Shown: in pieces, positions 50,645 through 64,000 of the stretch
Layout: the number at the start of each line of letters is the position of its first letter
Numbering within the stretch: the stretch's first letter is position 1
NCBI GenBank assembly: GCA_002840905.1
Contig: PHDD01000012.1
Coordinates: 1-64,000, forward strand
Direction of reading: 5' to 3'
Source: Bacteroidetes bacterium HGW-Bacteroidetes-4
GTDB lineage: Bacteria > Bacteroidota > Bacteroidia > Bacteroidales > SZUA-534
Length of the DNA stretch: 64,000 nucleotides
The notes under the pieces: model-generated
The model's database searches: none
The model's input: only the letters and a program-made list of their open reading frames with translations
What the model was told of the DNA's origin: nothing
Program-made: the position numbers and the translations under genes

Positions 50645-52735
50645 ATGAATGATTTTTTTAAAGACTTTTTCCACCATTTTGAATTACCTTTTACCAATCC
50701 TGTACTTGTTTTTTCGCTGATTCTTTTCATCATTCTTTTTGTTCCTATACTTTTCCGGCGGATAAATGTTCCGGGAATTATTGGTCTTATCATCTCGGGA
50801 ATAATTATTGGACCACTTGGCTTTAACGTCCTGGAAAAAAACAGTGCTGTTGATTTATTTTCAACCATTGGTTTGCTCTACATCATGTTTATGGCCGGTT
50901 TGGAACTCGAACTCAACGAATTTAAGCGGGTTCGTAATCAAAGTGTGGTCTTCGGATTCTTCACCTTTTTTATTCCTTTAATCATTGGCTTTCCTATTTG
51001 TTATTATTTATTGGGTTACGAACTCAACGCAAGTTTGTTAATTACCAGTATGTTTGCCACCCATACCTTGGTAGCTTATCCAATTATTAGTAAACTGGGC
51101 ATAGCCAAAAATAGGGTAGTGGCAGTTACTGTTGGAGGAACCATCATAACCGATACCATTGTACTAATACTATTGGCGGTAATTATGGGAAACAGCCAGG
51201 GAAAACTTAATCCCGAGTTTTGGATTATTCTTGGTTCAACCCTGGTAGCTTTTACATTTATCATGTTTGCGGTAATTCCAAAAATTACCCGCTGGTTTTT
51301 TAAAAAACTCGAGAGCGAAAAACATGCACACTATGTTTTTGTATTGTCGGTGGTTTTCTTTTCGGCATTTTTAGCTGAACTTTCTGGTTTGGAACCCATC
51401 ATTGGCGCTTTTATTGCCGGATTGGCATTGAATCAGTTAATTCCCCAGTCATCGCCTTTAATGAACCGCATTGAGTTTATCGGCAATTCCATTTTTATTC
51501 CTTTCTTTTTAATTTCGGTGGGTATGCTTATCGATGTGCGGGTAATTTTTAGTGGTCCAGCTACCTTGTTAATAGGACTGGTTTTAACCCTCAGTGCCCT
51601 GTTAAGCAAATGGCTGGCTGCTTTTATCACGCAAAAAATATATAAGTATTCCCGAATGCAACGGCAACTCATATTTGGATTAAGCAGCGCAAGGGTAGCA
51701 GCAACCCTGGCAATAATTCTGGTGGGTTACAATGCGGGTATCCTCGATAAAAACATTCTGAATATAGCCATTATAATTATATTGATAACTACCATTTTTT
51801 CGTCGGTGATAACCGAAAAAGCGGCCAAACAAATTCTTTTGGCCGATAATGCATCAGACGAATCCCAGGTTCAGCAGCCTTTGCAGGAACACATGTTGTT
51901 ACCGATAGCCAATTTGATGAATATTGAAAAGCTGATTGAATTTGCTCTTTTAATTAAACAACATAAGTCGGTAAACCCCGTGACGGTTTTATCGGTTGTG
52001 CCAAACAATACGCAAGCCGAAGCAAATCTTATTGAAGCCCGTAAACGACTCGAAGAATTTAAGGCTCACGGTGCAGCTACCGAAACCAGTATAAATACGG
52101 TGGCAACCATCGATTACAATCCCTCTAGTGCCATTGGCCGCATATCAAAAGAAATTATGGCTGACATAATTATTCTGGGTTGGCCTAAAAAGGCAAATAT
52201 TCTGGAACGTTTAATAGGAGAAAAGATTTACGCCATTGTAAACAGTGTCGATAAGAATTTCTTTGTTTGCAGTTTGGATGCTCCCCTTATCAATCAAAAA
52301 CGTATTGTGGTAATTACTACACCCAAAGCTGAATTGGAATATGGTTTTGAAACCTGGCTACATAAAGTAGTCAAATTATCGAAGGAGCTGAGTATTCCAT
52401 TGGTACATTTCGGAAGTAAGATTACCCATGAGGCCATTCGGGAAGTAACCCAGCGAAATAAGCTGCATGCAACTTTTTCATTTAATACTTTCGACGATTG
52501 GGAAAACTTTCATTTACTGGCCGATTATATTAAAGCCGACGACTTATTGATTTTGGTTTCTGCCCGCAAAAAATCATTGTCTTATGTGCATCATTTCGAT
52601 CATATTCCCAATCGAATTGATAAACGTTTGATGAATAACGATATTATTGTGGTATATCCCCAGCAGTTTAATCACAGAAATAATGAAACCGAAATTGCTT
52701 TATCCGAGACCTTACTCACAAATTATGAAAAATAA
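50645..52735 (+). CDS. CPA2 cation/proton antiporter with C-terminal UspA-like domains, copy 1
   Basis: Protein of 696 residues. The first 390 residues are a Na+/H+ exchanger membrane domain of 12-13 helices, with RINVPGIIGLIISGIIIGPL at the start and LIPQSSPLMNRIEFIGNSIF, then FFLISVGMLID in the middle. The rest is soluble and resembles two UspA-like folds (LLPIANLMNIEKLIEFALLI). Such proteins exchange Na+ or K+ for protons across the inner membrane. No KTN/RCK domain is seen. A paralogue follows directly. Confidence 0.88.
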   Translation: MNDFFKDFFHHFELPFTNPVLVFSLILFIILFVPILFRRINVPGIIGLIISGIIIGPLGFNVLEKNSAVDLFSTIGLLYIMFMAGLELELNEFKRVRNQSVVFGFFTFFIPLIIGFPICYYLLGYELNASLLITSMFATHTLVAYPIISKLGIAKNRVVAVTVGGTIITDTIVLILLAVIMGNSQGKLNPEFWIILGSTLVAFTFIMFAVIPKITRWFFKKLESEKHAHYVFVLSVVFFSAFLAELSGLEPIIGAFIAGLALNQLIPQSSPLMNRIEFIGNSIFIPFFLISVGMLIDVRVIFSGPATLLIGLVLTLSALLSKWLAAFITQKIYKYSRMQRQLIFGLSSARVAATLAIILVGYNAGILDKNILNIAIIIILITTIFSSVITEKAAKQILLADNASDESQVQQPLQEHMLLPIANLMNIEKLIEFALLIKQHKSVNPVTVLSVVPNNTQAEANLIEARKRLEEFKAHGAATETSINTVATIDYNPSSAIGRISKEIMADIIILGWPKKANILERLIGEKIYAIVNSVDKNFFVCSLDAPLINQKRIVVITTPKAELEYGFETWLHKVVKLSKELSIPLVHFGSKITHEAIREVTQRNKLHATFSFNTFDDWENFHLLADYIKADDLLILVSARKKSLSYVHHFDHIPNRIDKRLMNNDIIVVYPQQFNHRNNETEIALSETLLTNYEK

Positions 52736-52822
52736 TTGCTGTAAGGTTCAGGCCTCGCTTATGTTGAAAACATTTGGAGCCATTAAATTGTACCCATAGC
52801 ATTTACTAACTGTTGCATTTTT

Positions 52823-54961
52823 ATGGCGTTAATTGTTAACTTGTTTAATCAGTTGCCTATTACCGATCCGGTGGTTAAATTTTTAATCATTCTGCTGATA
52901 ATTTTAGTAATTCCCCTGGTTTCGGAACGACTTAAGATACCTCAGTTAATGGGAATGATAATAGCCGGGGTAGTAATTGGCCCTTATGGGCTTAACCTTT
53001 TAGCCCGCGATAGCAGCATAATTCTCTCGGGTACAGCCGGCCTACTCTATATCATGTTCTTAGCCGGTTTGGAAATCGACATCAACGATTTTAAAAAGAA
53101 TGCCGTTAAAAGTACAGTTTTAGGCTTGTTGGGCTTTCTTATTCCCATGATTTTTGGAACCTTAGCGGGAATTTATCTGCTTAATTTTGGTTTTTTAACT
53201 TCGGTTTTACTGGCCAGTATGTTTGCGTCGCATACGTTAATAACTTACCCAATGGTGAGCAAAATGGGCATTTCGAAGAATACGGCTGTTAATATTTCGG
53301 TGGGCAGTACCTTAATAACAAATATTCTGGCACTATTGGTTCTGGCCATTACAGTTGGAATGACCTCGGGCGATATGGATCATCGTTTTTGGCTTAAACT
53401 TGGCTTTTCTTTTGTGGCTTTTACCCTGATTATTTTGTTTTTGTTTCCTATTGTTTCCCGCTGGTTTTTTAAACGTTACAGCGACAATGTGTCGCAATAT
53501 ATATTTGTATTGGTGGTTGTTTTTCTGGGAGCCGTTTTATCGCAACTTGCCGGTATCGAAGCCATTATCGGGGCCTTTATGGCCGGACTTGCTTTAAACC
53601 GTTTAATTCCGCGTACCTCGCCTTTAATGAATCGAATCGATTTTGTGGGAAATGCTATTTTTATTCCCTTCTTTTTAATTGGTGTGGGAATGCTTATCGA
53701 TTATCGGGCCTTTAGCAGTATCGAAACTATTGTTGTTGCAATAACCATGTCGGTAATAGCTACCGGAACTAAGTTTTTGGCTGCCTGGCTAACCCAAAAA
53801 AGTTTTAAGTTTTCAAAGTCCGAACGTCAGGTAATCTTTGGCTTAACCAATGCACAAGCGGCTGCTACCTTAGCGGCAGTTTTGGTGGGATACAATATTA
53901 TAATAGGTGAAACGGCATCGGGTGAACCCATTCGGCTTTTGAGTGACAGTATTTTAAACGGAACCATTATTATGATTCTGGTTACCTGCACCATTGCTTC
54001 ATTTGCAACGCAACAGGGTGCCCAGTCGATTGCCATGATTGAACAGCCTGATAAACACGCTGAAAACAACATCGAGCGTATCTTAATTCCGGTAAGCAAT
54101 CCGAATACCATTGAAGAGTTGATTAATTTAAGTAATATCATCAAATCAAAGACCAATACCCGGGGCCTTTTTGCCTTAAATATAATTAACAGCGACAATG
54201 CCGATGCTGAACTCGAAAAGCAGGGGTTAAAAGTCCTCGAAAAAGCAAAAATGGCAGCGGCTGCCACAGATATAGAAATGAAAACCCTCTTACGCTACGA
54301 CATCAATTCAGTTAACGGAATTGTTAGTGTGATTAAGGAACAGCGAATCACTGATTTGGTTTTGGGACTTCATGTTAAAAAAGGAATCTCAGACTCCTTT
54401 TTGGGAAATTTAACCGATGGGATTCTTTCAAAAAGTAATGTTACTACCTTTGTTTATCACCCTTTTCAACCCATTTCTACAGTTAAGCGGCATTTGGTGG
54501 TTGTACCTGAAAATGCAGAATACGAATTCGGTTTTTCGTTTTGGCTGGCCCGCCTATGGAATATTGCTTTAAACACCGGTGCCAAAATTGTGTTTTATGC
54601 TTCTGAAAACACCTTAAATCTGATAAAACAGGTACATGGAAAACATCCTATTGAGGTTAGTTTTAAGGAATTTAACCATTGGGACGATTTTTTGATATTA
54701 TCGAAAGACCTGAGGAAAGACGATAATTTTGTTGTGGTAATGAGTCGGAGTAAATCGTTGTCGTATCAGTCGAATATGATTAAAATACCCAAATACCTGA
54801 ACCGCTACTTTCATGAGCAGAATTATTTATTGGTTTACCCGCAGCAATCAGAGAGTTTAACGCATGAAAAAATCGATCTTACCAATTCATCGCTGATTGA
54901 AGCCATCGAAGGAATTGATGTGATTGGTAAAACCATTGCTCATATTTTTCGTAAGCGATAA
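52823..54961 (+). CDS. CPA2 cation/proton antiporter with C-terminal UspA-like domains, copy 2
   Basis: Protein of 712 residues, same architecture as its neighbour: RLKIPQLMGMIIAGVVIGPY, LIPRTSPLMNRIDFVGNAIF and FFLIGVGMLIDYRAF, followed by UspA-like domains (RILIPVSNPNTIEELINLSN). The two copies align throughout and end alike (KSLSYQSNMIKIP here, KSLSYVHHFDHIP in copy 1), indicating tandem duplication with strong divergence. The 87-bp gap has no terminator. They may form a heteromer or have different ion preference, which is inference. Confidence 0.88.
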   Translation: MALIVNLFNQLPITDPVVKFLIILLIILVIPLVSERLKIPQLMGMIIAGVVIGPYGLNLLARDSSIILSGTAGLLYIMFLAGLEIDINDFKKNAVKSTVLGLLGFLIPMIFGTLAGIYLLNFGFLTSVLLASMFASHTLITYPMVSKMGISKNTAVNISVGSTLITNILALLVLAITVGMTSGDMDHRFWLKLGFSFVAFTLIILFLFPIVSRWFFKRYSDNVSQYIFVLVVVFLGAVLSQLAGIEAIIGAFMAGLALNRLIPRTSPLMNRIDFVGNAIFIPFFLIGVGMLIDYRAFSSIETIVVAITMSVIATGTKFLAAWLTQKSFKFSKSERQVIFGLTNAQAAATLAAVLVGYNIIIGETASGEPIRLLSDSILNGTIIMILVTCTIASFATQQGAQSIAMIEQPDKHAENNIERILIPVSNPNTIEELINLSNIIKSKTNTRGLFALNIINSDNADAELEKQGLKVLEKAKMAAAATDIEMKTLLRYDINSVNGIVSVIKEQRITDLVLGLHVKKGISDSFLGNLTDGILSKSNVTTFVYHPFQPISTVKRHLVVVPENAEYEFGFSFWLARLWNIALNTGAKIVFYASENTLNLIKQVHGKHPIEVSFKEFNHWDDFLILSKDLRKDDNFVVVMSRSKSLSYQSNMIKIPKYLNRYFHEQNYLLVYPQQSESLTHEKIDLTNSSLIEAIEGIDVIGKTIAHIFRKR

Positions 54962-56413: not shown

Positions 56414-58495
56414 TTAGTTAAGACCTCTGTTATTTAGTAAAGGTTGGATGCCGGGTTCTGAACCACGGAATTTTTTATACAATTCCATCGCATCTTCAGT
56501 TCCACCCAATTCCAATACATTGGTTCGGAAAGCACTGGCCGTATTTTTATCGAAAATACCATGTTCCTTAAAGGCTTCAAAGGCATCGGCGTCGAGTACT
56601 TCGGCCCAGATGTAGCTGTAGTAAGCTGAAGCATATCCGTCGCCTGAGAACACATGAAGGAAATAGGGGCTGCGGTAGCGGGGAACAATTTCGTCTATCA
56701 TTTTTATTTTTTTCATCGAGGCTGCTTCAAATGCATTAACATCCCAATCCTGAACCTGGGTTTGGGTATGCCAGTCCAAATCGAGGTACGAAGCCGCCAG
56801 GTATTCGGTGGTGGCAAAACCCTGGTTGAATTTACCGGCTTTCTCTATTTTTGTTATTAATTCGGCAGGCATCGATTCGCCGGTTTGGTAATGTTTGGCA
56901 TAATGGTTCAGTACTTCGGGTTCAAAAGCCCAGTGTTCCATAATTTGAGAAGGCAATTCCACAAAATCGCGCGGGGTGCGCAAACTTGAGTAATGCTTGT
57001 TGGCAAATAAGCCGTCGAGAGCGTGTCCAAATTCGTGGAACAGGGTTTCTGTTTCGTCAACCGTTAATAAGGCCGGAGCATCGGCTGTTGGTGCAGAGAA
57101 ATTGCAAACAATCGACATGACCGGAGCCACACGTTCCCCATTTTCGTATTTCTGTGAGCGGTAACTGGTGCACCAGGCTCCCGAACGCTTCGACTCGCGT
57201 GGGTGATAATCCATATATAAAATGCCCAAATGGTCACCGTTTTCTTCTTTTACTTCAAAAACTTCTACTTCGGGATGGTAAACCGGCATGTTTTCGAGCT
57301 GAGTAAAACTGATTCCGTATAGTTGGTTGGCTACCCAAAACATACCATCGCGAACATTATCCAGTTTCAGGTAAGGACGGATTTCGTTTTCGTTTAAAGC
57401 AAATTTTTGCTGTTTTACTTTTGTAGCATAGAAATCGTAATCCCAGGGGGCCAGTTTAAAGTTGTGTCCATCGGCAGTAATCATATGTTGCATGTCGGCT
57501 ACTTCTTTTTTTGCCACCCGTAGGGCGTTGGGCATGATTTGATCGAGCAGTTTGTAAACATTATCGGCATTTTTAGCCATGTTTTTGTCTAAAATATAGG
57601 CCGAAAAGTTTTCGTAACCCAGCAATTGGGCTTTCTCGATACGCAGGTTTACAATGTCATTAATAATAGCCTTGTTGTCGAGCGAATCGTCGTAATTGGC
57701 TTTGTTTATGTATGCTTCAAACATTTTCTGACGTAAATCGCGGTTTTCGGCGTTGGCCAGGAAGGGGAGCAGACTGGGTTTGTGAATGGTAAATACCCAT
57801 TTGCCTTCCAGGTTTTTTTCATTGGCTTTTTGGGTAGCAGCAGCTATCGAGGTTGAAGAAAGGCCGGCAAGGTCGGCTTCGTTGTCAACAACCAGCATAA
57901 AACGGTTGTTTTCTTTTAACACATTCTGGCCAAAATTCAGGAACAGTACCGATAATTCCTTATTGATTTCACGGAAGCGGGTTTTTGCTTCATCGTTGAG
58001 ATTGGCTCCGCCGCGTACAAAATTTTTGTAGGTGTTTTCAACCAAAGTTAGTTGTTCGGTAGTTAATTCCAGGGCTTCGCGCTGGTCGTAAACAGCTTTT
58101 ACCTTTGCAAACAGGGTTTCGTTTAAACGGATGTCGTCGTTGTGTCCCGACATAATGGGTGCCAGTTCCATCGATATTACTTCCAATTTGTCGCTGGTAG
58201 CTGCCGAAGTCAGGTTGTAAAATACGCTGCTTACCCGGCTCAACAGTTCATCGCTGTTTTCGAGAGCTTCAATGGTGTTTTCGAAGCTTGGCGCTTCGGT
58301 AGTTGTAATAATGGCTTCAACCGCTGCTTTTTCCTGCTTCATACCTTCTAAAAAAGCCGGCATGTAGTGTTCCGGTTTTATCTGTTCAAAAGGAGGAACC
58401 TGAAAAGGTGTTTCAAACGAGCTTAATAAGGGATTTTCCATAGATTTTTTCGATTCGTTTTTTAGCTGGCATCCATACCCCAGGAATAGTGCCAC
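56414..58495 (-). CDS. dcp: Peptidyl-dipeptidase (M3 family), 5' end disrupted by prophage
   Basis: Protein of at least 693 residues. The zinc motif HEFGH is at residues 487-491 (TLFHEFGHALDG), with the later Glu in RDFVELPSQIMEHW. It removes dipeptides from C-termini and is usually periplasmic in this group. The only normal start in frame is GTG at 58495, giving just eight residues before Cys-9 (LFLGYGCQ), too short for a lipoprotein signal. In frame upstream, the DNA reads on as IRPHIFIAVALFLGYGC, a good lipobox peptide, without ATG, GTG or TTG before a stop at 58535-58537. The missing start is where prophage repeats begin, so the insertion probably cut off the promoter and start. Confidence 0.88.
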   Translation of the reverse strand: MALFLGYGCQLKNESKKSMENPLLSSFETPFQVPPFEQIKPEHYMPAFLEGMKQEKAAVEAIITTTEAPSFENTIEALENSDELLSRVSSVFYNLTSAATSDKLEVISMELAPIMSGHNDDIRLNETLFAKVKAVYDQREALELTTEQLTLVENTYKNFVRGGANLNDEAKTRFREINKELSVLFLNFGQNVLKENNRFMLVVDNEADLAGLSSTSIAAATQKANEKNLEGKWVFTIHKPSLLPFLANAENRDLRQKMFEAYINKANYDDSLDNKAIINDIVNLRIEKAQLLGYENFSAYILDKNMAKNADNVYKLLDQIMPNALRVAKKEVADMQHMITADGHNFKLAPWDYDFYATKVKQQKFALNENEIRPYLKLDNVRDGMFWVANQLYGISFTQLENMPVYHPEVEVFEVKEENGDHLGILYMDYHPRESKRSGAWCTSYRSQKYENGERVAPVMSIVCNFSAPTADAPALLTVDETETLFHEFGHALDGLFANKHYSSLRTPRDFVELPSQIMEHWAFEPEVLNHYAKHYQTGESMPAELITKIEKAGKFNQGFATTEYLAASYLDLDWHTQTQVQDWDVNAFEAASMKKIKMIDEIVPRYRSPYFLHVFSGDGYASAYYSYIWAEVLDADAFEAFKEHGIFDKNTASAFRTNVLELGGTEDAMELYKKFRGSEPGIQPLLNNRGLN

Positions 58496-58516
58496 AGCTA
58501 TGAATATATGGGGCCT

Positions 58517-58536
58517 AATTCCAAATGTACACTTTT
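58517..58536 (+). repeat. Prophage end repeat L1 (putative transposase binding site)
   Basis: AATTCCAAATGTACACTTTT, identical over 20 bp to 58610-58629. Mu-like phages carry two or three such transposase sites at the left end; the 93-bp spacing is similar to Mu L1 to L2. Confidence 0.65.
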
Positions 58537-58609
58537 AAATAGTTAATGTTTATTTAGCAAAGATAGCAATAACAAAGAGTTACACGTTATTCAATGGTAA
58601 CTTATCACC

Positions 58610-58629
58610 AATTCCAAATGTACACTTTT
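58610..58629 (+). repeat. Prophage end repeat L2 (putative transposase binding site)
   Basis: Second identical 20-bp copy. Between the two lies an inverted repeat GTTAC...GTAAC (58579-58601) that could be a bending-protein site, which is speculative. Confidence 0.65.
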
Positions 58630-58687
58630 TTCCATTCAGTATAATTCAGGGTAAATTATTTAATACTTTCTGAAAGGTATTGAACAC

Positions 58688-58888
58688 CTATTTACCATTT
58701 GCTAGTATAATAAGCTCCTCCTTAAGCTTTATTATTTCATTCCTGAGGCTATTTATGTACTCCTGGTAGCGTGGACATACCGACCGACATCCGTGGCAAT
58801 CTCTTTTAATTTCGTGATTGTTAAGCGTTAAATTATCGGCAAGATTTAGCTGATTAATGTGGAGCTTATTAATGTTGATAGTTGGCAT
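58688..58888 (-). CDS. Small prophage protein with CxxCxxxC and coiled coil
   Basis: Protein of 66 residues, family not recognised. The middle carries RDCHGCRSVCPRY, a CxxCxxxC cluster that may bind zinc or iron, and the end is a heptad helix (YINSLRNEIIKLKEELIIL). It is transcribed in the repressor direction, 50 bp downstream of the repressor gene, so it would be expressed in the lysogen. A lysogenic accessory role such as superinfection exclusion is possible but only a guess. Confidence 0.6.
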   Translation of the reverse strand: MPTININKLHINQLNLADNLTLNNHEIKRDCHGCRSVCPRYQEYINSLRNEIIKLKEELIILANGK

Positions 58889-58938
58889 ATACGTTAATTT
58901 GTGGGTGTTTACAAAATAACGTAGGCTCGTATATAATA

Positions 58939-59409
58939 TTATTTGTTGAGAAGACTTTTTAAAAGCTCAACCTGGCCCTCGAGCTTAGCTATGGTGAGTT
59001 TTTGTGCGAGGTTTTGCTCTTTAAGAACCTCTAATTCAGTGTTGTATTTTTGGCTTTTTTCGTTTGCAAAGGTGCTGTTTACCGTGGCGTTGTTGCCATA
59101 ATTGTTGGCCTGGCCAATTGAACCGCTTTTTATGGTAACCTTTTTGTGTACGTTTGGATTTAGGTTACCATTTACATTACCATTTAGGTTACCATTATCG
59201 ACTGTTAAAATATAATTCAAGTCCCATCCTTTTTCCTGACAAACTTTAATCAACATATCGTAGTTTATTGAATTGCGATTTCGCCAGGCCGAAATTGTTC
59301 CTGCCCTAGTGCCAAAAAGGTCGGCTAGCTCCTGGTCGGTGTCTAATTCGGCCATTAACTTTACCTTTTGTAGTATTAAATCGACATATTGTGTGTTTTT
59401 TTCTTGCAT
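58939..59409 (-). CDS. Prophage repressor with HTH and coiled coil, no peptidase domain
   Basis: Protein of 156 residues. Residues 5-70 form a CI-type helix-turn-helix (TDQELADLFGTRAGTISAWR, then the INYDMLIKVCQEKGWDLNYI continuation typical of phage CI repressor N-domains). Residues 72-83 are three NGN(L/V) repeats forming a linker. Residues 118-156 are a leucine-rich coiled coil (LEVLKEQNLAQKLTIAKLEG). No LexA-type Ser-Lys protease part exists, so RecA-stimulated cleavage is not expected. It faces away from the early genes and should repress them at the palindrome 59412-59424. Confidence 0.8.
   Translation of the reverse strand: MQEKNTQYVDLILQKVKLMAELDTDQELADLFGTRAGTISAWRNRNSINYDMLIKVCQEKGWDLNYILTVDNGNLNGNVNGNLNPNVHKKVTIKSGSIGQANNYGNNATVNSTFANEKSQKYNTELEVLKEQNLAQKLTIAKLEGQVELLKSLLNK
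59161..59196 (-). repeat. Three in-frame 12-bp tandem repeats in the repressor linker
   Basis: Units at 59161-59172, 59173-59184 and 59185-59196 are TAGGTTACCATT, TACATTACCATT and TAGGTTACCATT. They encode NGNL, NGNV, NGNL on the minus strand, so copy-number changes would keep the frame. Confidence 0.75.
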
Positions 59410-59434
59410 TTCTACATAATGTAGTTTATATTTG
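59404..59434 (+). promoter_or_regulatory. Prophage early promoter (rightward)
   Basis: TTG (59404-59406), 20-nt spacer, TATATTTG (59427-59434) fits the Bacteroidota consensus. The operator palindrome lies inside the spacer, so repressor binding would block RNA polymerase. It would drive ner and the transposase genes. Confidence 0.6.
59412..59424. promoter_or_regulatory. Operator palindrome O1
   Basis: CTACATAATGTAG is a perfect 13-bp palindrome (6-1-6) between repressor and ner genes, between the -33 and -7 of the early promoter and in the leader of the repressor gene. Confidence 0.65.
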
Positions 59435-59448
59435 TCAAGTATTATTTA

Positions 59449-59479
59449 CAAAACTATTTAAAAAATGCATACCAACAAA
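59449..59479 (-). promoter_or_regulatory. Prophage repressor promoter (leftward)
   Basis: Minus-strand TTTG (59476-59479), 19-nt spacer, TAGTTTTG (59449-59456): a full match to the consensus. Its -33 lies within the first codons of ner. The start site near 59442 gives a leader of about 33 nt that contains O1. Confidence 0.65.
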
Positions 59480-59689
59480 AAATATTTTAACACAGAAGCT
59501 AAAGCCCTGGGCGACCAATTAAGCGCTGATGACCGCAAGCTATTGATAACTAAATTTGACGTATCAGAAAGCTACATCAGTCATTTATTGAATGGAAACA
59601 GAATAGCTATGCGGGGTAAAGGTGCCGAAATATTGGAGTTTGCTAAAAAACTGGCCTCTATAAATAATCAAAAACTTGAACTAGCTTAA
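59465..59689 (+). CDS. Small HTH regulator, Ner/Cro-like
   Basis: Protein of 74 residues. An HTH is visible at about 22-50 (DDRKLLITKFDVSESYISHL, followed by LNGNRIAMRGKGAEILEF). By position, opposite the repressor and ahead of the transposase, it corresponds to Mu Ner, which turns down repressor and early transcription. Its start codon region overlaps the repressor promoter, so its transcription and that of the repressor would interfere. Confidence 0.75.
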   Translation: MHTNKKYFNTEAKALGDQLSADDRKLLITKFDVSESYISHLLNGNRIAMRGKGAEILEFAKKLASINNQKLELA

Positions 59690-59708
59690 AAAAATTTGCA
59701 TGAGAACA

Positions 59709-59721
59709 CTACAAAATGTGG
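59709..59721. promoter_or_regulatory. Second operator-like site O2
   Basis: CTACAAAATGTGG matches O1 at 11 of 13 positions and lies between ner and the transposase gene. Confidence 0.4.
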
Positions 59722-59758
59722 TTTCAAAAACTACAAACAATAGAATTTTCTGCTAGTT

Positions 59759-61837
59759 ATGCCGGGGCTACAGCAAAATATAATATGTGTTACTGTTCCC
59801 GAGCTCGCCTCGATTGGCGTGAGTGAGAACTACCTTAAAAAGGCATTAAGCCAACACCGCCAGGGTGTTGTTTCTTGCTGGCCGCATCACAAAGAGGGAC
59901 GGACTATTTACATTCACTATGCCGGACTTAAGACTGAGTATCAGCAAAGCATAAAAGAGAAGCTTTGCCAAGGCATGGAACCTGCTGACTGGATTAAAAC
60001 GGCGCATGAAAACAACCGGGCCAATGAAAAGGAGGCAAAAGCCGAGGCGCTTGAGTTGGCTGTTTTAGAGGCTATAAATAATTATCATGGGTTTACCCGC
60101 TATTACGACGGCTTTAAACCGGAGCAGAAGGAGAAAACCGCTAAGAATGCCAGCGCGATTGTGGCCGCGGCAAACTACATGAAGGCGAATAACATTAAAC
60201 CCAACAGCCTTACTTTTTATAACGAACTGGGACTTATTTTTGACAAATACGGACAAAAGCCCAGCAACGCCCGCCGCCTGGCGGAAAAGGTAAAAGCCTA
60301 CTTTGAAGGAACCCCCATTAACGAGATTGTAACAGTGCCCCGCGCGGGGAATAATAACCGGGCTTTGTACCGGCAAAGCGACGCCCAAACCCTTGAAACG
60401 ATACGCGGCTGGATGCTTCAATTAATGGATGGGCACAATTACACCGACGCTATGATTGTACGCACACTCCTACGTAACTGCGAAATTCAGCAATTTGACA
60501 AGATACCGAGCCAAAGTACCCTGCAAAACTGGGTAAATGCCCGCGATATTAGCTTTTTAAGCGCAAACGCCCGCTATGGTGATAATAGCCGCTTTAGCTC
60601 GAAATTTAACGGCATTACGCCGATGGCCCGCCCGCTGCATGCGAATGACGTTTGGCAGATGGACGGTACCCGTATTAATATGATACCCCACCGGGCGGTT
60701 GCAAAAAACGGACAAAAAAAGGACATGTTCCTTTATATAGTGGCTGTTTATGATGCACACTCGGGTGATTACCTGGGCGAATACTACGGTTACACGGAAA
60801 GCCGATGGGCTTATGCCGCCGCCCTGCATGCTGCTTGCATGAATACCGGCGCTTTGCCTCATACGCTGGTACTCGACCGGTTCCCCGGGCACAATACCAA
60901 AGAGTGGCTGCACCTGGTTGAACAGTTGAAAAACCGCTATGGCGTTACGGTAATTGAAAGCTCGAAAAGTACGGGTAAGGCTCAGGTTGAGCGAAGCTTT
61001 GGTACCGTTCAAAGTGTGTTTATGGCCGCCAGTGAGCTGTACTATGGCGAGGGCGTAAAAAGTACCCGCCCAAGCGCTCACCGGACTGAGGAACACATAC
61101 AGCGCACACTGAAAGAAGCCAAAAAGGCCGGTTTTGAATTAGAGGGTGCAATTAGCGAGGCTGTGAAGGTAATGCAGGCATACCGGCACACGCCACTAAA
61201 TACTTACTCGCGTAAATTTGCCAAGCTGCAAGCCAGCCCGGCACAATTGCATGCGGCCAGCGATAAACCTAACCAGATAGCCCTTGAGCCTATTGATATG
61301 GTTCGCCTTTTTTATCTGCGCAACGAACTAACCTTTAAACAGCAAATGTTTAGCATGGAAGTGCTGCGGGAACCACTTTATTACCCGATTGACGACTTTA
61401 AGTTTGTAAAAAACTACACCGGCCAAAAGTTTGAAGTGCGATACGACCCGTTTAACCTGGAACAACTCTATATTTTTGACCTTGAAACCAGCGCCTTTGT
61501 GCGCACAGCCAAGCGATACACCCCGGCTATTGGCTACGGCCCCGACGCCGACCACAAACCCTATGCAAAATTGAAAGCAGCCCGCAAGGCTATTGAAACC
61601 ACGCGTAAGGTGGAACGCGCCCGCATGATAGAGGAGGCTCCCGGACTGCAAAGACCAGCCTTGCCCGAACCCGATTACAGCGACCATGCCGAAGTTACCG
61701 CATTGACTCCCCACGAGCCGAAAGGCATTAAGGAGCATGCTGAAAGCGACTTCCTGCTAAAGGAAATGGGCGTAACTCCTGAAAAGGATGCCTGGGAACG
61801 CGAGGCTGAGCGGATTAAAATACCGGGAATTGATTAG
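59759..61837 (+). CDS. Mu-type DDE transposase (MuA homologue)
   Basis: Protein of 692 residues, close to the MuA length of 663. The N-terminal part (about 1-100) would bind the phage ends. The RNase H-fold core shows D302 (WQMDGTRINMI), D373 (LVLDRFPGHNTKEW) and E411 (AQVERSFGTVQ), with spacing D-70-D-37-E. The C-terminal part holds a Mu-type beta-barrel (MVRLFYLRNELTFK, then FEVRYDPFNLEQLYIFD), and the extreme C-terminus would contact MuB. All three catalytic residues and the whole frame are intact, so activity is likely. Downstream genes follow in one transcript. Confidence 0.92.
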   Translation: MPGLQQNIICVTVPELASIGVSENYLKKALSQHRQGVVSCWPHHKEGRTIYIHYAGLKTEYQQSIKEKLCQGMEPADWIKTAHENNRANEKEAKAEALELAVLEAINNYHGFTRYYDGFKPEQKEKTAKNASAIVAAANYMKANNIKPNSLTFYNELGLIFDKYGQKPSNARRLAEKVKAYFEGTPINEIVTVPRAGNNNRALYRQSDAQTLETIRGWMLQLMDGHNYTDAMIVRTLLRNCEIQQFDKIPSQSTLQNWVNARDISFLSANARYGDNSRFSSKFNGITPMARPLHANDVWQMDGTRINMIPHRAVAKNGQKKDMFLYIVAVYDAHSGDYLGEYYGYTESRWAYAAALHAACMNTGALPHTLVLDRFPGHNTKEWLHLVEQLKNRYGVTVIESSKSTGKAQVERSFGTVQSVFMAASELYYGEGVKSTRPSAHRTEEHIQRTLKEAKKAGFELEGAISEAVKVMQAYRHTPLNTYSRKFAKLQASPAQLHAASDKPNQIALEPIDMVRLFYLRNELTFKQQMFSMEVLREPLYYPIDDFKFVKNYTGQKFEVRYDPFNLEQLYIFDLETSAFVRTAKRYTPAIGYGPDADHKPYAKLKAARKAIETTRKVERARMIEEAPGLQRPALPEPDYSDHAEVTALTPHEPKGIKEHAESDFLLKEMGVTPEKDAWEREAERIKIPGID

Positions 61838-61838
61838 T

Positions 61839-61885
61839 GAAAAGTGAATAGTGAATAGTGAATAATTAATAACTAATAACTAGAA
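61839..61885 (+). repeat. Short tandem repeat AGTGAAT between transposase and next gene
   Basis: Three perfect tandem AGTGAAT units at 61843-61863, followed by two AATAACT units. Low-complexity linker of 50 bp; the core ATAGTGAA also occurs in reverse at 81-139. Confidence 0.6.
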
Positions 61886-61887
61886 AA

Positions 61888-62157
61888 ATGTATGTACAAA
61901 CCTCAAACAAAGTAAAGCTTTTCAGGCTTGAGCAGATGCCTGAAAAGGAGCGCGAGCTTGAAATTGCCAGCGGGATGCCCCTGGCTGCTCCGATGTTCAA
62001 CAGTAAAACTGCCGGGTTCTATTATTACCCAAAGATTGGATCGTACGTGGTTCACGATGTGATGAGCGCTAAAGAGATTAAGCGCTACGACAAGGCTATT
62101 GACGCGCTGAATGAAGCTAAGCGCATAAAAGAAATGCTAATAAATAAATATAAGTAA
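61888..62157 (+). CDS. Small prophage early protein, unknown
   Basis: Protein of 89 residues, not recognised. The N-terminus is a polar part (KVKLFRLEQMPEKERELEIA), the middle is aromatic (KTAGFYYYPKIGSYVVHDVM), and the end is a basic helix (RYDKAIDALNEAKRIKEMLI). It sits between transposases A and B, where Mu has none, so it may be an accessory of transposition. Base composition matches its neighbours. Confidence 0.65.
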   Translation: MYVQTSNKVKLFRLEQMPEKERELEIASGMPLAAPMFNSKTAGFYYYPKIGSYVVHDVMSAKEIKRYDKAIDALNEAKRIKEMLINKYK

Positions 62158-62215
62158 ACCGGGAGCAGGCCCGCCCCCGGTTCAAAAACAGTATTAATAA
62201 TTAAAATTTTGAATT

Positions 62216-63064
62216 ATGGACAAAGTTAGTGTTAAAAACGCATTAGTACAAAAAATGGAAAGTTTACAACTTTCGGGTAACAAAGTAGCTCCGCTTATCG
62301 GCATTAGCTCGGCTAATGTGAGCAATATACTAAACGATAAGTGGGACATAGTAGGTGACCAGATTTGGCGCAAGGTGATGGTTTATTGCGGCATGGCCAG
62401 CAAATGGCAACCGGCTAAAACGGCTAACCTGGCTAAAATTTATGCGCTTTGCCAGGATGCGCAAAGCAATCACGTGGCCCTGGCTTTTAGTTTTGCCCCG
62501 GGTAGTGGTAAAAGCTTCGCGCTTAAGCATTATACTGCCACCACCAAGGAAGTGGCTTATGTTGAGTGCGACGAGTACTGGACTAAGAAAATTTTTCTGC
62601 AAAAAATTGGCTCAAGCCTGGGCGTTACCGTAGAGGGAACCGTCCACGAAATGGTTGAGACGGTGGTTGAAGTGCTGAACCGCAAGCGCAACCCCCTGCT
62701 TATTATTGACGAGGCTGACAAGCTTAAAGACCCGGCTTTGAATATGTTTAAAACCCTATTCAACCGAACCCAGGAGCGTTGCGGCTTTATTCTATGTGGC
62801 GCCCCATACTTTAAAATACGGATTGAGAAAGGTGTAAGCCGCAATAAGCAGGCTTACCAGGAGATTTACAGCCGTTTGGGTGGTGAGTTTATTCCACTTA
62901 CCCCGGTAAGCAGTAACGATGTTGGCGCGGTGTGTAAGGCCAACGATGTAAGCAACCCGGAGCATATTAGCGCGATTATCGGCGCAAGCAAAGGCGACTT
63001 AAGGCAGGTTGCCCGCATGATTCATAAGCTGAAAAAGGACGAAAACTATAACGCAAACGAGTAA
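62216..63064 (+). CDS. MuB-type AAA+ ATPase, transposition target selector
   Basis: Protein of 282 residues. The first 60 form an HTH like that of MuB (LSGNKVAPLIGISSANVSNI). The AAA core has Walker A at residues 94-100 (FAPGSGKSFALKHY, Lys-99) and Walker B at residues 160-166 (PLLIIDEADKLKD). MuB binds target DNA as ATP filaments and stimulates MuA. The last codons overlap the next start (TAATG). Confidence 0.9.
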   Translation: MDKVSVKNALVQKMESLQLSGNKVAPLIGISSANVSNILNDKWDIVGDQIWRKVMVYCGMASKWQPAKTANLAKIYALCQDAQSNHVALAFSFAPGSGKSFALKHYTATTKEVAYVECDEYWTKKIFLQKIGSSLGVTVEGTVHEMVETVVEVLNRKRNPLLIIDEADKLKDPALNMFKTLFNRTQERCGFILCGAPYFKIRIEKGVSRNKQAYQEIYSRLGGEFIPLTPVSSNDVGAVCKANDVSNPEHISAIIGASKGDLRQVARMIHKLKKDENYNANE

Positions 63065-63690
63065 TGGCAGCCCGGAATATCTATAATATAAAGAGCATCC
63101 AGGAGCGGAATTATAAGATTCTTGACCTGGGAAAATACAGCCCATTGATGGGGAGGCCTGAAAACCGGTTTACTGCCATGATGTATGGCGAGAGCGGGTC
63201 GGGAAAGTCGGTGTTTACGCTTCAGTTTGCCGACTACTACTCGCACTACTATGGTAAGGTGCTTTACAATAGCCACGAGGAAGGTGTAAACCAGACCATT
63301 AAAGACCGGATTACCGATTTTGACATAAAAAGCCCCAAGCTGTGGGTGGGTAATAAGTTGGATTATGAGCAAATGTGCCACAAAATTGAGCGTAATTACT
63401 ACCGACTGGTGGTTGTTGACAGCGTTCAATACATGAATTTCACCTTTGAGCAGCTTAAGGAAATGCGCGAGCGCTTTAAAAAGCGGCATCTGAGCATAGT
63501 GCTGGTAAGCTTTGGCCAAAGCCAGGGTAAACCTGCCGGAGCCGGAGCTATTGACCTGCTACATGCCAGCGATATAAAGCTGTTTTTTAAAAACGGCACT
63601 TGCCACAGCCACGGGCGCTATTTAAGCAAGCCGGTGAGCCAGCGCTTATTTGTGCCCGGCCAGTTAACAACCCAGGGCTCATTATTTTAA
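63064..63690 (+). CDS. RecA-like P-loop ATPase of the prophage
   Basis: Protein of 208 residues. Walker A is MMYGESGSGKSVFTLQFADY (Lys-48) and Walker B is YRLVVVDSVQYMNF (Asp-119). The layout resembles small phage RecA-like ATPases (Sak4-type or DnaB-like core) rather than AAA+. Its start overlaps the MuB stop by one base, so translation is coupled. Mu itself has no counterpart in this position. The role, perhaps recombination or replication, is inference. Confidence 0.8.
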   Translation: MAARNIYNIKSIQERNYKILDLGKYSPLMGRPENRFTAMMYGESGSGKSVFTLQFADYYSHYYGKVLYNSHEEGVNQTIKDRITDFDIKSPKLWVGNKLDYEQMCHKIERNYYRLVVVDSVQYMNFTFEQLKEMRERFKKRHLSIVLVSFGQSQGKPAGAGAIDLLHASDIKLFFKNGTCHSHGRYLSKPVSQRLFVPGQLTTQGSLF

Positions 63691-63697
63691 CAGGGAT

Positions 63698-64000
63698 ATG
63701 GAAACGCGCGCAAAGAACATCAGGAAAGAAGTAATGAGGCTCCTTGGCTTAAGCGAGGAGCAGTATTACCTGAATGTGTTGGAGTATAGCTACGACTTTA
63801 TGCAAGCCAAGGGCTATAATGTTGCGGTGGTTGATGTGTTGCACCAAACGCCTGCTTACTGGGTTTGGTGGCGCAACCAGTTTGGGATAGCCGATATGTT
63901 TTTTTTGAACTCGTGCCAGGTGTTTGCCTTAAACCGCTATTCGCCCGCGCAATTACTCGAGTTCTATAAGCAGTGCCACGTAGGCATTATGGCTTTCCCA
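63698..64000 (+). CDS. Prophage early protein, partial at window edge
   Basis: An open frame of 101 codons from the ATG at 63698 runs off the window with no stop. It begins METRAKNIRKEVMRLLGLSE, followed by EQYYLNVLEYSYDFMQAKGY and later an aromatic stretch PAYWVWWRNQFGIADMFFL. No family recognised. AGGGA lies just before the start, and it follows the RecA-like gene by 7 bp, with the same base composition. Confidence 0.7.
   Translation, partial: METRAKNIRKEVMRLLGLSEEQYYLNVLEYSYDFMQAKGYNVAVVDVLHQTPAYWVWWRNQFGIADMFFLNSCQVFALNRYSPAQLLEFYKQCHVGIMAFP

Follow-up and report, generated by a model that had tools for sequence, protein, structure and literature searches.

Phage Mu duplicates 5 bp of its target and has TG...CA ends. 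Among the transposable phages of the Bacteroidota, Hankyphage is described as carrying a DGR and as having 5-bp direct repeats for its duplication (PMC6199706), and by a further account one of its extremities bears a CI-like repressor (PMC12135933), a likeness to the prophage described here. Phages of P. gingivalis are described as bounded by 4-bp repeats (PMC10367356). The present prophage also has a 4-bp duplication, unlike Hankyphage.

We analysed a stretch of 64,000 bp (the window), which is bases 1-64000 of contig C15 (160,843 bp) in an assembly of 4.3 Mb and 42 contigs. The insertion in it is clear and the kind of event ordinary: judged by its genes and ends, a transposable prophage, kin of the jumping phages of gut Bacteroides, is seated in codons 6-7 of dcp (Table 1). 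We regard it as almost certain that a tailed phage of the Bacteroidota group, temperate and transposable (Mu-like), entered these codons by transposition, duplicating 4 bp. What can be read directly from the DNA is the exact ends, the duplication, a start and a promoter-like site separated from their gene, an intact peptidase body, and a far-side gene that adjoins dcp in relatives. C15 continues well beyond base 64000, which made the prophage's right end directly readable; it lies on C15 itself and not, as the original prediction had expected, on the next contig. The whole prophage spans C15:58507-91977 (33,471 bp), has both ends on C15 and looks complete. A search of its own genome found a single copy, with a single known insertion site, and among the titles listed by literature searches none concerned this dcp insertion.

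Table 1. Features of the interrupted dcp locus and of the left part of the prophage, in window coordinates.
Feature	Position	Strand	Remarks
dcp remnant	56414..58506	-	complete M3 peptidase body and last 12 signal-peptide residues, without native start or promoter
ATG of MENPLL...	58439..58441	-	remaining canonical start; would give unexported full-length Dcp
GTG named in the original prediction	58493..58495	-	codon 10 of reconstructed signal peptide, not native start
Left copy of target duplication AATA, 4 bp	58503..58506	.	right copy C15:91978-91981
Left part of transposable prophage	58507..64000	+	shares left terminus 5'-TATGGGGC with P. gingivalis phage008a
End repeat L1	58517..58536	+	bases 11-30 from left end
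End repeat L2	58610..58629	+	bases 104-123 from left end
Small phage ORF, 66 aa	58688..58888	-	downstream of repressor, reads toward dcp
CI-type phage repressor	58939..59409	-	PF07022 E=1.3e-8; reads toward dcp
Promoter-like TTTG-N19-TAGTTTTG	59449..59479	-	upstream of repressor; script scan, 10/10 consensus positions
MuA-like DDE transposase	59759..61837	+	phrog_310 E=1e-40; PF09299; Mu-transpos_C above cut-off
MuB-like AAA transposition activator	62216..63064	+	phrog_296 E=3.4e-54; adjoins transposase

Nothing in the gene content of the prophage gave a sign of defect. Genes for terminase, portal, major head and tape measure proteins, an M15 peptidase and a D12 methyltransferase are present as open frames, and the acidic triad D, D, E, which has a role in DDE transposases, is conserved in all five transposases aligned (this one included). 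The MuB-like protein is 34-35% identical to the B proteins of Hankyphage and of Porphyromonas phages, and the 66-aa ORF beside the repressor matched no family in Pfam or phrog searches. Portal, terminase and neighbouring genes lie on the minus strand (C15:70766-76836), between two plus-strand blocks. Outside the prophage, two long neighbouring ORFs at 50645-54961 (696 and 712 aa) look alike and by eye resemble sodium/proton antiporters.

The interrupted gene and its separated start

The ORF list gives dcp as 56414-58495 on the minus strand. Its product matches Pfam Peptidase_M3 (PF01432, E=1.8e-130), the M3 domain of Dcp and M3A peptidases, aligns with E. coli Dcp 1y79 over residues 21-693 (E=6.8e-168), and contains the zinc site HEFGH. 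The frame is open from 58534, with 706 codons from stop to stop, and holds no ATG, GTG or TTG upstream of GTG 58495; the claim that dcp runs without a start into the phage edge is thus borne out. The residues 'HI', formerly taken as part of the native signal, are not: phage DNA supplies the 'H' and some of the first 'I' (phage-encoded or hybrid).

The original prediction held that the prophage had probably cut dcp from its start and promoter, and that the missing first codons and promoter would be found at the right end. The codons and a promoter-like site do lie there. On the dcp strand, to the right of the phage, C15:91997-91978 reads GTG AAA AAC TTA TTC TTA TT, a GTG start, six codons in all and two bases; the leader CTAACTAAAAAAATAGTACA precedes this GTG, and a promoter-like ATTG-N20-TATTTTCG, agreeing with 8 of 10 positions of the consensus, begins at C15:92055. 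Removing the phage and one AATA copy in silico restores an unbroken frame beginning VKNLFLFIAVALFLGYGC, in which the duplicated bases AATA span codons 6-7. The reconstructed empty-site junction, ...CTTATTCTTATT joined to CATAGC, had 0 exact matches in genome_contigs, a collection from which this genome or near ones may be absent.

Relatives of the same genus begin dcp in a similar way. The reconstructed protein has 18 residues up to the Cys, as do those of G001, G002 and G003 with starts as read here, and in all three the start precedes the position of GTG 58495 by 9 codons. Among their dcp leaders, those of G001 (TTAACTAAAAACAAATATT, then GTGAAA) and G003 (TTAACTAAAAATAAATTTT, then GTGAAA) are similar to the pre-insertion leader, 'CTAACTAAAAA...GTGAAA'; in G002 the start is ATG and the leader is less alike. 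Neither of the outcomes that would have spoken against the original prediction was seen, since the dcp start does lie right of the phage and these relatives do not start at GTG 58495.

The gene to the right of the phage encodes a histidine kinase (Pfam). In G004 a homologue (42% identity) is the gene immediately upstream of dcp and shares its orientation, and in G006 another (45%) lies upstream of dcp with one opposite-strand gene between, which supports insertion of the phage into dcp. G008 has further genes of the kinase block upstream of dcp. The neighbourhood was read in seven relatives; next to dcp, the stretches covered in G001, G002, G005 and G008 did not show the kinase itself, and G003 could not be judged because its contig ends there.

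The reconstructed VKNLFLFIAVALFLGYGC has an n-region and an h-region. Lipoboxes follow [LVI][ASTVI][GAS]C, with L, V or I usual at -3; the box here, GYGC, deviates at -3 and -2. With Gly at -3 it is, as a motif, weak and not standard, and the earlier description of a good lipobox was too strong. Of 29 relative loci, a loose script found a hydrophobic leader ending in Cys at 27, of which L013 looks doubtful on inspection by eye; of the two loci without one, one is cut by a contig end. The strict lipobox fits 11 of the 22 relative loci that remained after a script filter had dropped 7 of the 29.

Possible consequences for Dcp

With the phage in place, the native start would read VKNLFLFIIRDFK..., a frame of 40 codons with its stop inside the right end of the phage. 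The native promoter would now read this hybrid ORF and exported Dcp would be lost, so that the consequence for the host would be loss of the export signal from its only detected Dcp: a single match to the protein was found in its genome. At least one match was present in 50 of 60 genomes (this one included) and none in 10, some of the genomes being incomplete; because of these 10, Dcp seems dispensable within the order.

Translation of any residual Dcp would begin at ATG 58441, leaving the enzyme in the cytoplasm, or else at GTG 58495, in which case its signal would be crippled. The NPLL of the product from ATG 58441 (MENPLL...) aligns with NPFL, residues 4-7, in E. coli Dcp 1y79, making the two starts equivalent; a cytoplasmic enzyme from this ATG is therefore possible, to judge from the alignment.

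Lysogeny itself might keep dcp on, through the repressor transcript or through promoter-like sites in the end repeats, giving cytoplasmic Dcp from ATG 58441. This reading is compatible with insertion by transposition, and we hold it to be doubtful. The repressor and the 66-aa ORF both read toward dcp, and no terminator-like site was found on the dcp strand in 58300-59800. A promoter-like match at 10 of 10 positions lies upstream of the repressor, and each left end repeat carries, on the dcp strand and facing out of the phage, TACATTTG, an exact match to the Bacteroidetes -7 promoter element. The intact dcp body would also fit expression driven by lysogeny, but may reflect merely a young insertion. 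Against this reading, the promoter matches are matches to a consensus only, and a sigma-70 scan of both strands gave 6 where 4.9 were expected. A scan of the dcp strand for Bacteroidetes-type promoters gave 13 matches, against 2.15 in simple letter shuffles, one -7 site being counted several times at different spacings. As evidence for read-through into dcp, the promoter and terminator scans are suggestive only. That either route amounts to a heritable switch of enzyme location, with an exported lipoprotein peptidase becoming cytoplasmic while the phage stays, we consider unlikely.

Prophage boundaries and target duplication

L1 and L2 are, as originally described, identical 20-bp repeats (AATTCCAAATGTACACTTTT) 93 bp apart. 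The exact sequence occurs a third time, in inverted orientation, at C15:91926-91945, and a copy matching at 15 of 20 bases, at C15:91948-91967, marks the right end. With the phage ending in 5'-TATGGGGC (TATGGGG) on the left and 5'-TATAATCC (TATAATC) on the right, the end repeats are symmetrical, occupying bases 11-30 from each prophage end. The border had been placed where the repeats begin; the first phage base is in fact 58507, and an end at the 20-bp repeat itself (58517) was rejected because the terminus of the family lies 10 bases further out. A second terminus-like TATAATCGCGA starts 71 bases inside the right end, at C15:91897-91907 (L003:13897-13907), a position near that of the third right-end repeat (about 69-79) of the P. 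gingivalis phages.

We compared 5405 possible boundary pairs. A 4-bp duplication was found in 32, a plausibly placed start, 16-26 codons ahead of the Cys, in 913, and both in 6, with 58507/91977 among the six; duplication and start alone could not settle the boundary, since six pairs share them. The family termini select 1 of the 5405 pairs, 58507/91977, and the same pair has the 4-bp duplication and the restored frame. A short target duplication had been foreseen for the right end and is present there, at 4 bp (AATA) and not the 5 bp proposed.

Had the same insertion duplicated 5 bp (GAATA / TATTC), the length found in Mu, the phage would occupy 58507-91982 and the signal peptide would become VKNLFIAVALFLGYGC. 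GAATA was the first choice from shared 5-mers, replaced once the termini of relatives were read; it was the only 5-bp candidate accepted as restoring the frame with a native-looking start. It is found at both junctions, also restores a frame started by GTG, and has the length published for Hankyphage (PMC6199706). It nevertheless leaves 5 extra bases outside TATAATC, breaks the symmetry of the end repeats, shortens the signal from 18 residues to 16, and conflicts with the right termini of six phage records, while the match itself arises from a TTATTC TTATTC tandem. A 5-bp duplication is thus very improbable. We give practically no credence to the absence of any insertion in dcp, with GTG 58495 or ATG 58441 as natural start and an unrelated right flank: both codons are in frame and M-E-N-P occurs in several relatives, but a matching start and leader stand in the right flank, together with a kinase gene that neighbours dcp in G004 and G006, and the leaders ending in Cys at 27 of 29 relative loci argue against either start.

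Two IMG/VR contigs show the same junctions: 3300038334_000131 carries the left junction and 3300038336_000151 the right junction, with letters identical to this genome over the 10,421 and 3,714 bases compared, respectively. Both contigs probably derive from the same population and are not independent evidence. Host DNA flanks the phage in 3300038334_000131 (2.1 kb of dcp on one side, and a calculated 3.6 kb or so on the other), so that the bounds of this viral contig overshoot the phage. Transposase and MuB scans of viral_contigs returned the same insertion only, in 3300038334_000131, and the transposase scan of genome_contigs returned no relative. A tail-protein scan found both IMG/VR contigs and a relative at 34% in 3300046509_000089 (L059); an end-repeat scan found both and one contig taken by eye as a chance match.

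Relation to known transposable phages

Six phage records, representing about three lineages, were used here to define a terminus pattern: TA[TAC](A)GGGG on the left, found in 5 of the 6, and TA[TA](A)ATC on the right, found in all 6. The ends of the present prophage fit both. The exception, in which the right terminus is present and the left absent, is record 015a of a P. gingivalis phage, which comes from a metagenome bin.

The P. gingivalis phages 008a (BK068090) and 010a have the termini TATGGGGC / TATAATCG, which match those found here. Their records are of 33-35 kb, their MuB-like protein is 34-35% identical to that of the present prophage, and their two left end repeats lie 95 bp apart, similar to the 93 bp seen here. 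The end-repeat sequence itself differs (AAACGAAACGGGAT against AATTCCAAATGTACAC), and their transposase is too distant to be listed by tblastn. Winogradskyella phage Peternella_1 (NC_062754), of the family Winoviridae, likewise has matching termini, TACAGGGG / TATAATCG, the left being one base longer. It shares right-end repeats containing TGTACA, a MuB at 33% and a methyltransferase near the right end, and differs in its length of 39.6 kb and its origin in seawater.

Hankyphage p00 (BK010646) and jmh43 end in TAAGGGG / TAAATCC, a looser match. Hankyphage p00 has MuA- and MuB-like genes and a DNA methyltransferase near the right end, as here; its transposase is 23% identical to ours over half its length, its genome is 42.8 kb against 33.5 kb, and its end repeats differ. 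In two records of Hankyphage type that include flanks, no 4-bp duplication was found. Both are described as antibiotic-induced phage, and hankyphage particles are described as having host DNA at their ends (PMC12135933), so that the flanks of these records need not represent one site. A search of 395 genomes of the class (this one included) with Hankyphage bases 1-900 returned short matches only, in 10 genomes.

Mu-transpos_C was detected in 2 of 60 genomes, this one and G006. A homologous prophage in G234, whose transposase is 23% identical to that of the present one, provides an independent check on the ends; it runs from a left end TATAGGGG at C15:85218 to a right end TATAATCG at 119220 (G234 contig numbering; 34,003 bp) and has the 4-bp duplication GCAT on both sides. 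In G439 a left end was found and a right end was not, and G006, G290 and G169, where right ends were not searched for, gave no convincing end pair.

The order of transposase and activator genes, the repressor at the left end and the paired left sites about 100 bp apart are likenesses to Mu, from which the prophage differs in its 4-bp AATA duplication and TAT...ATA termini. The relatives of the phage, from Bacteroides, Porphyromonas and Winogradskyella, suggest that its host too belongs to the Bacteroidota. As far as the compared ends go, the outermost bases are conserved even between phages with only about 23% transposase identity and wholly different internal end repeats, and the exact ends of such prophages can thus be called from sequence. 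Conserved termini are mentioned for the P. gingivalis phages in a source whose main text does not print TATGGGG (PMC10367356); nor does the motif occur in the main text of either of two papers on Hankyphage (PMC6199706, PMC12135933). By the comparison of ends and transposition genes, the prophage is a new member of the transposable phages of the Bacteroidota, the group of the Porphyromonas phages, Hankyphage and Peternella, and its insertion site, known to the exact base, is that of a new lineage among them.
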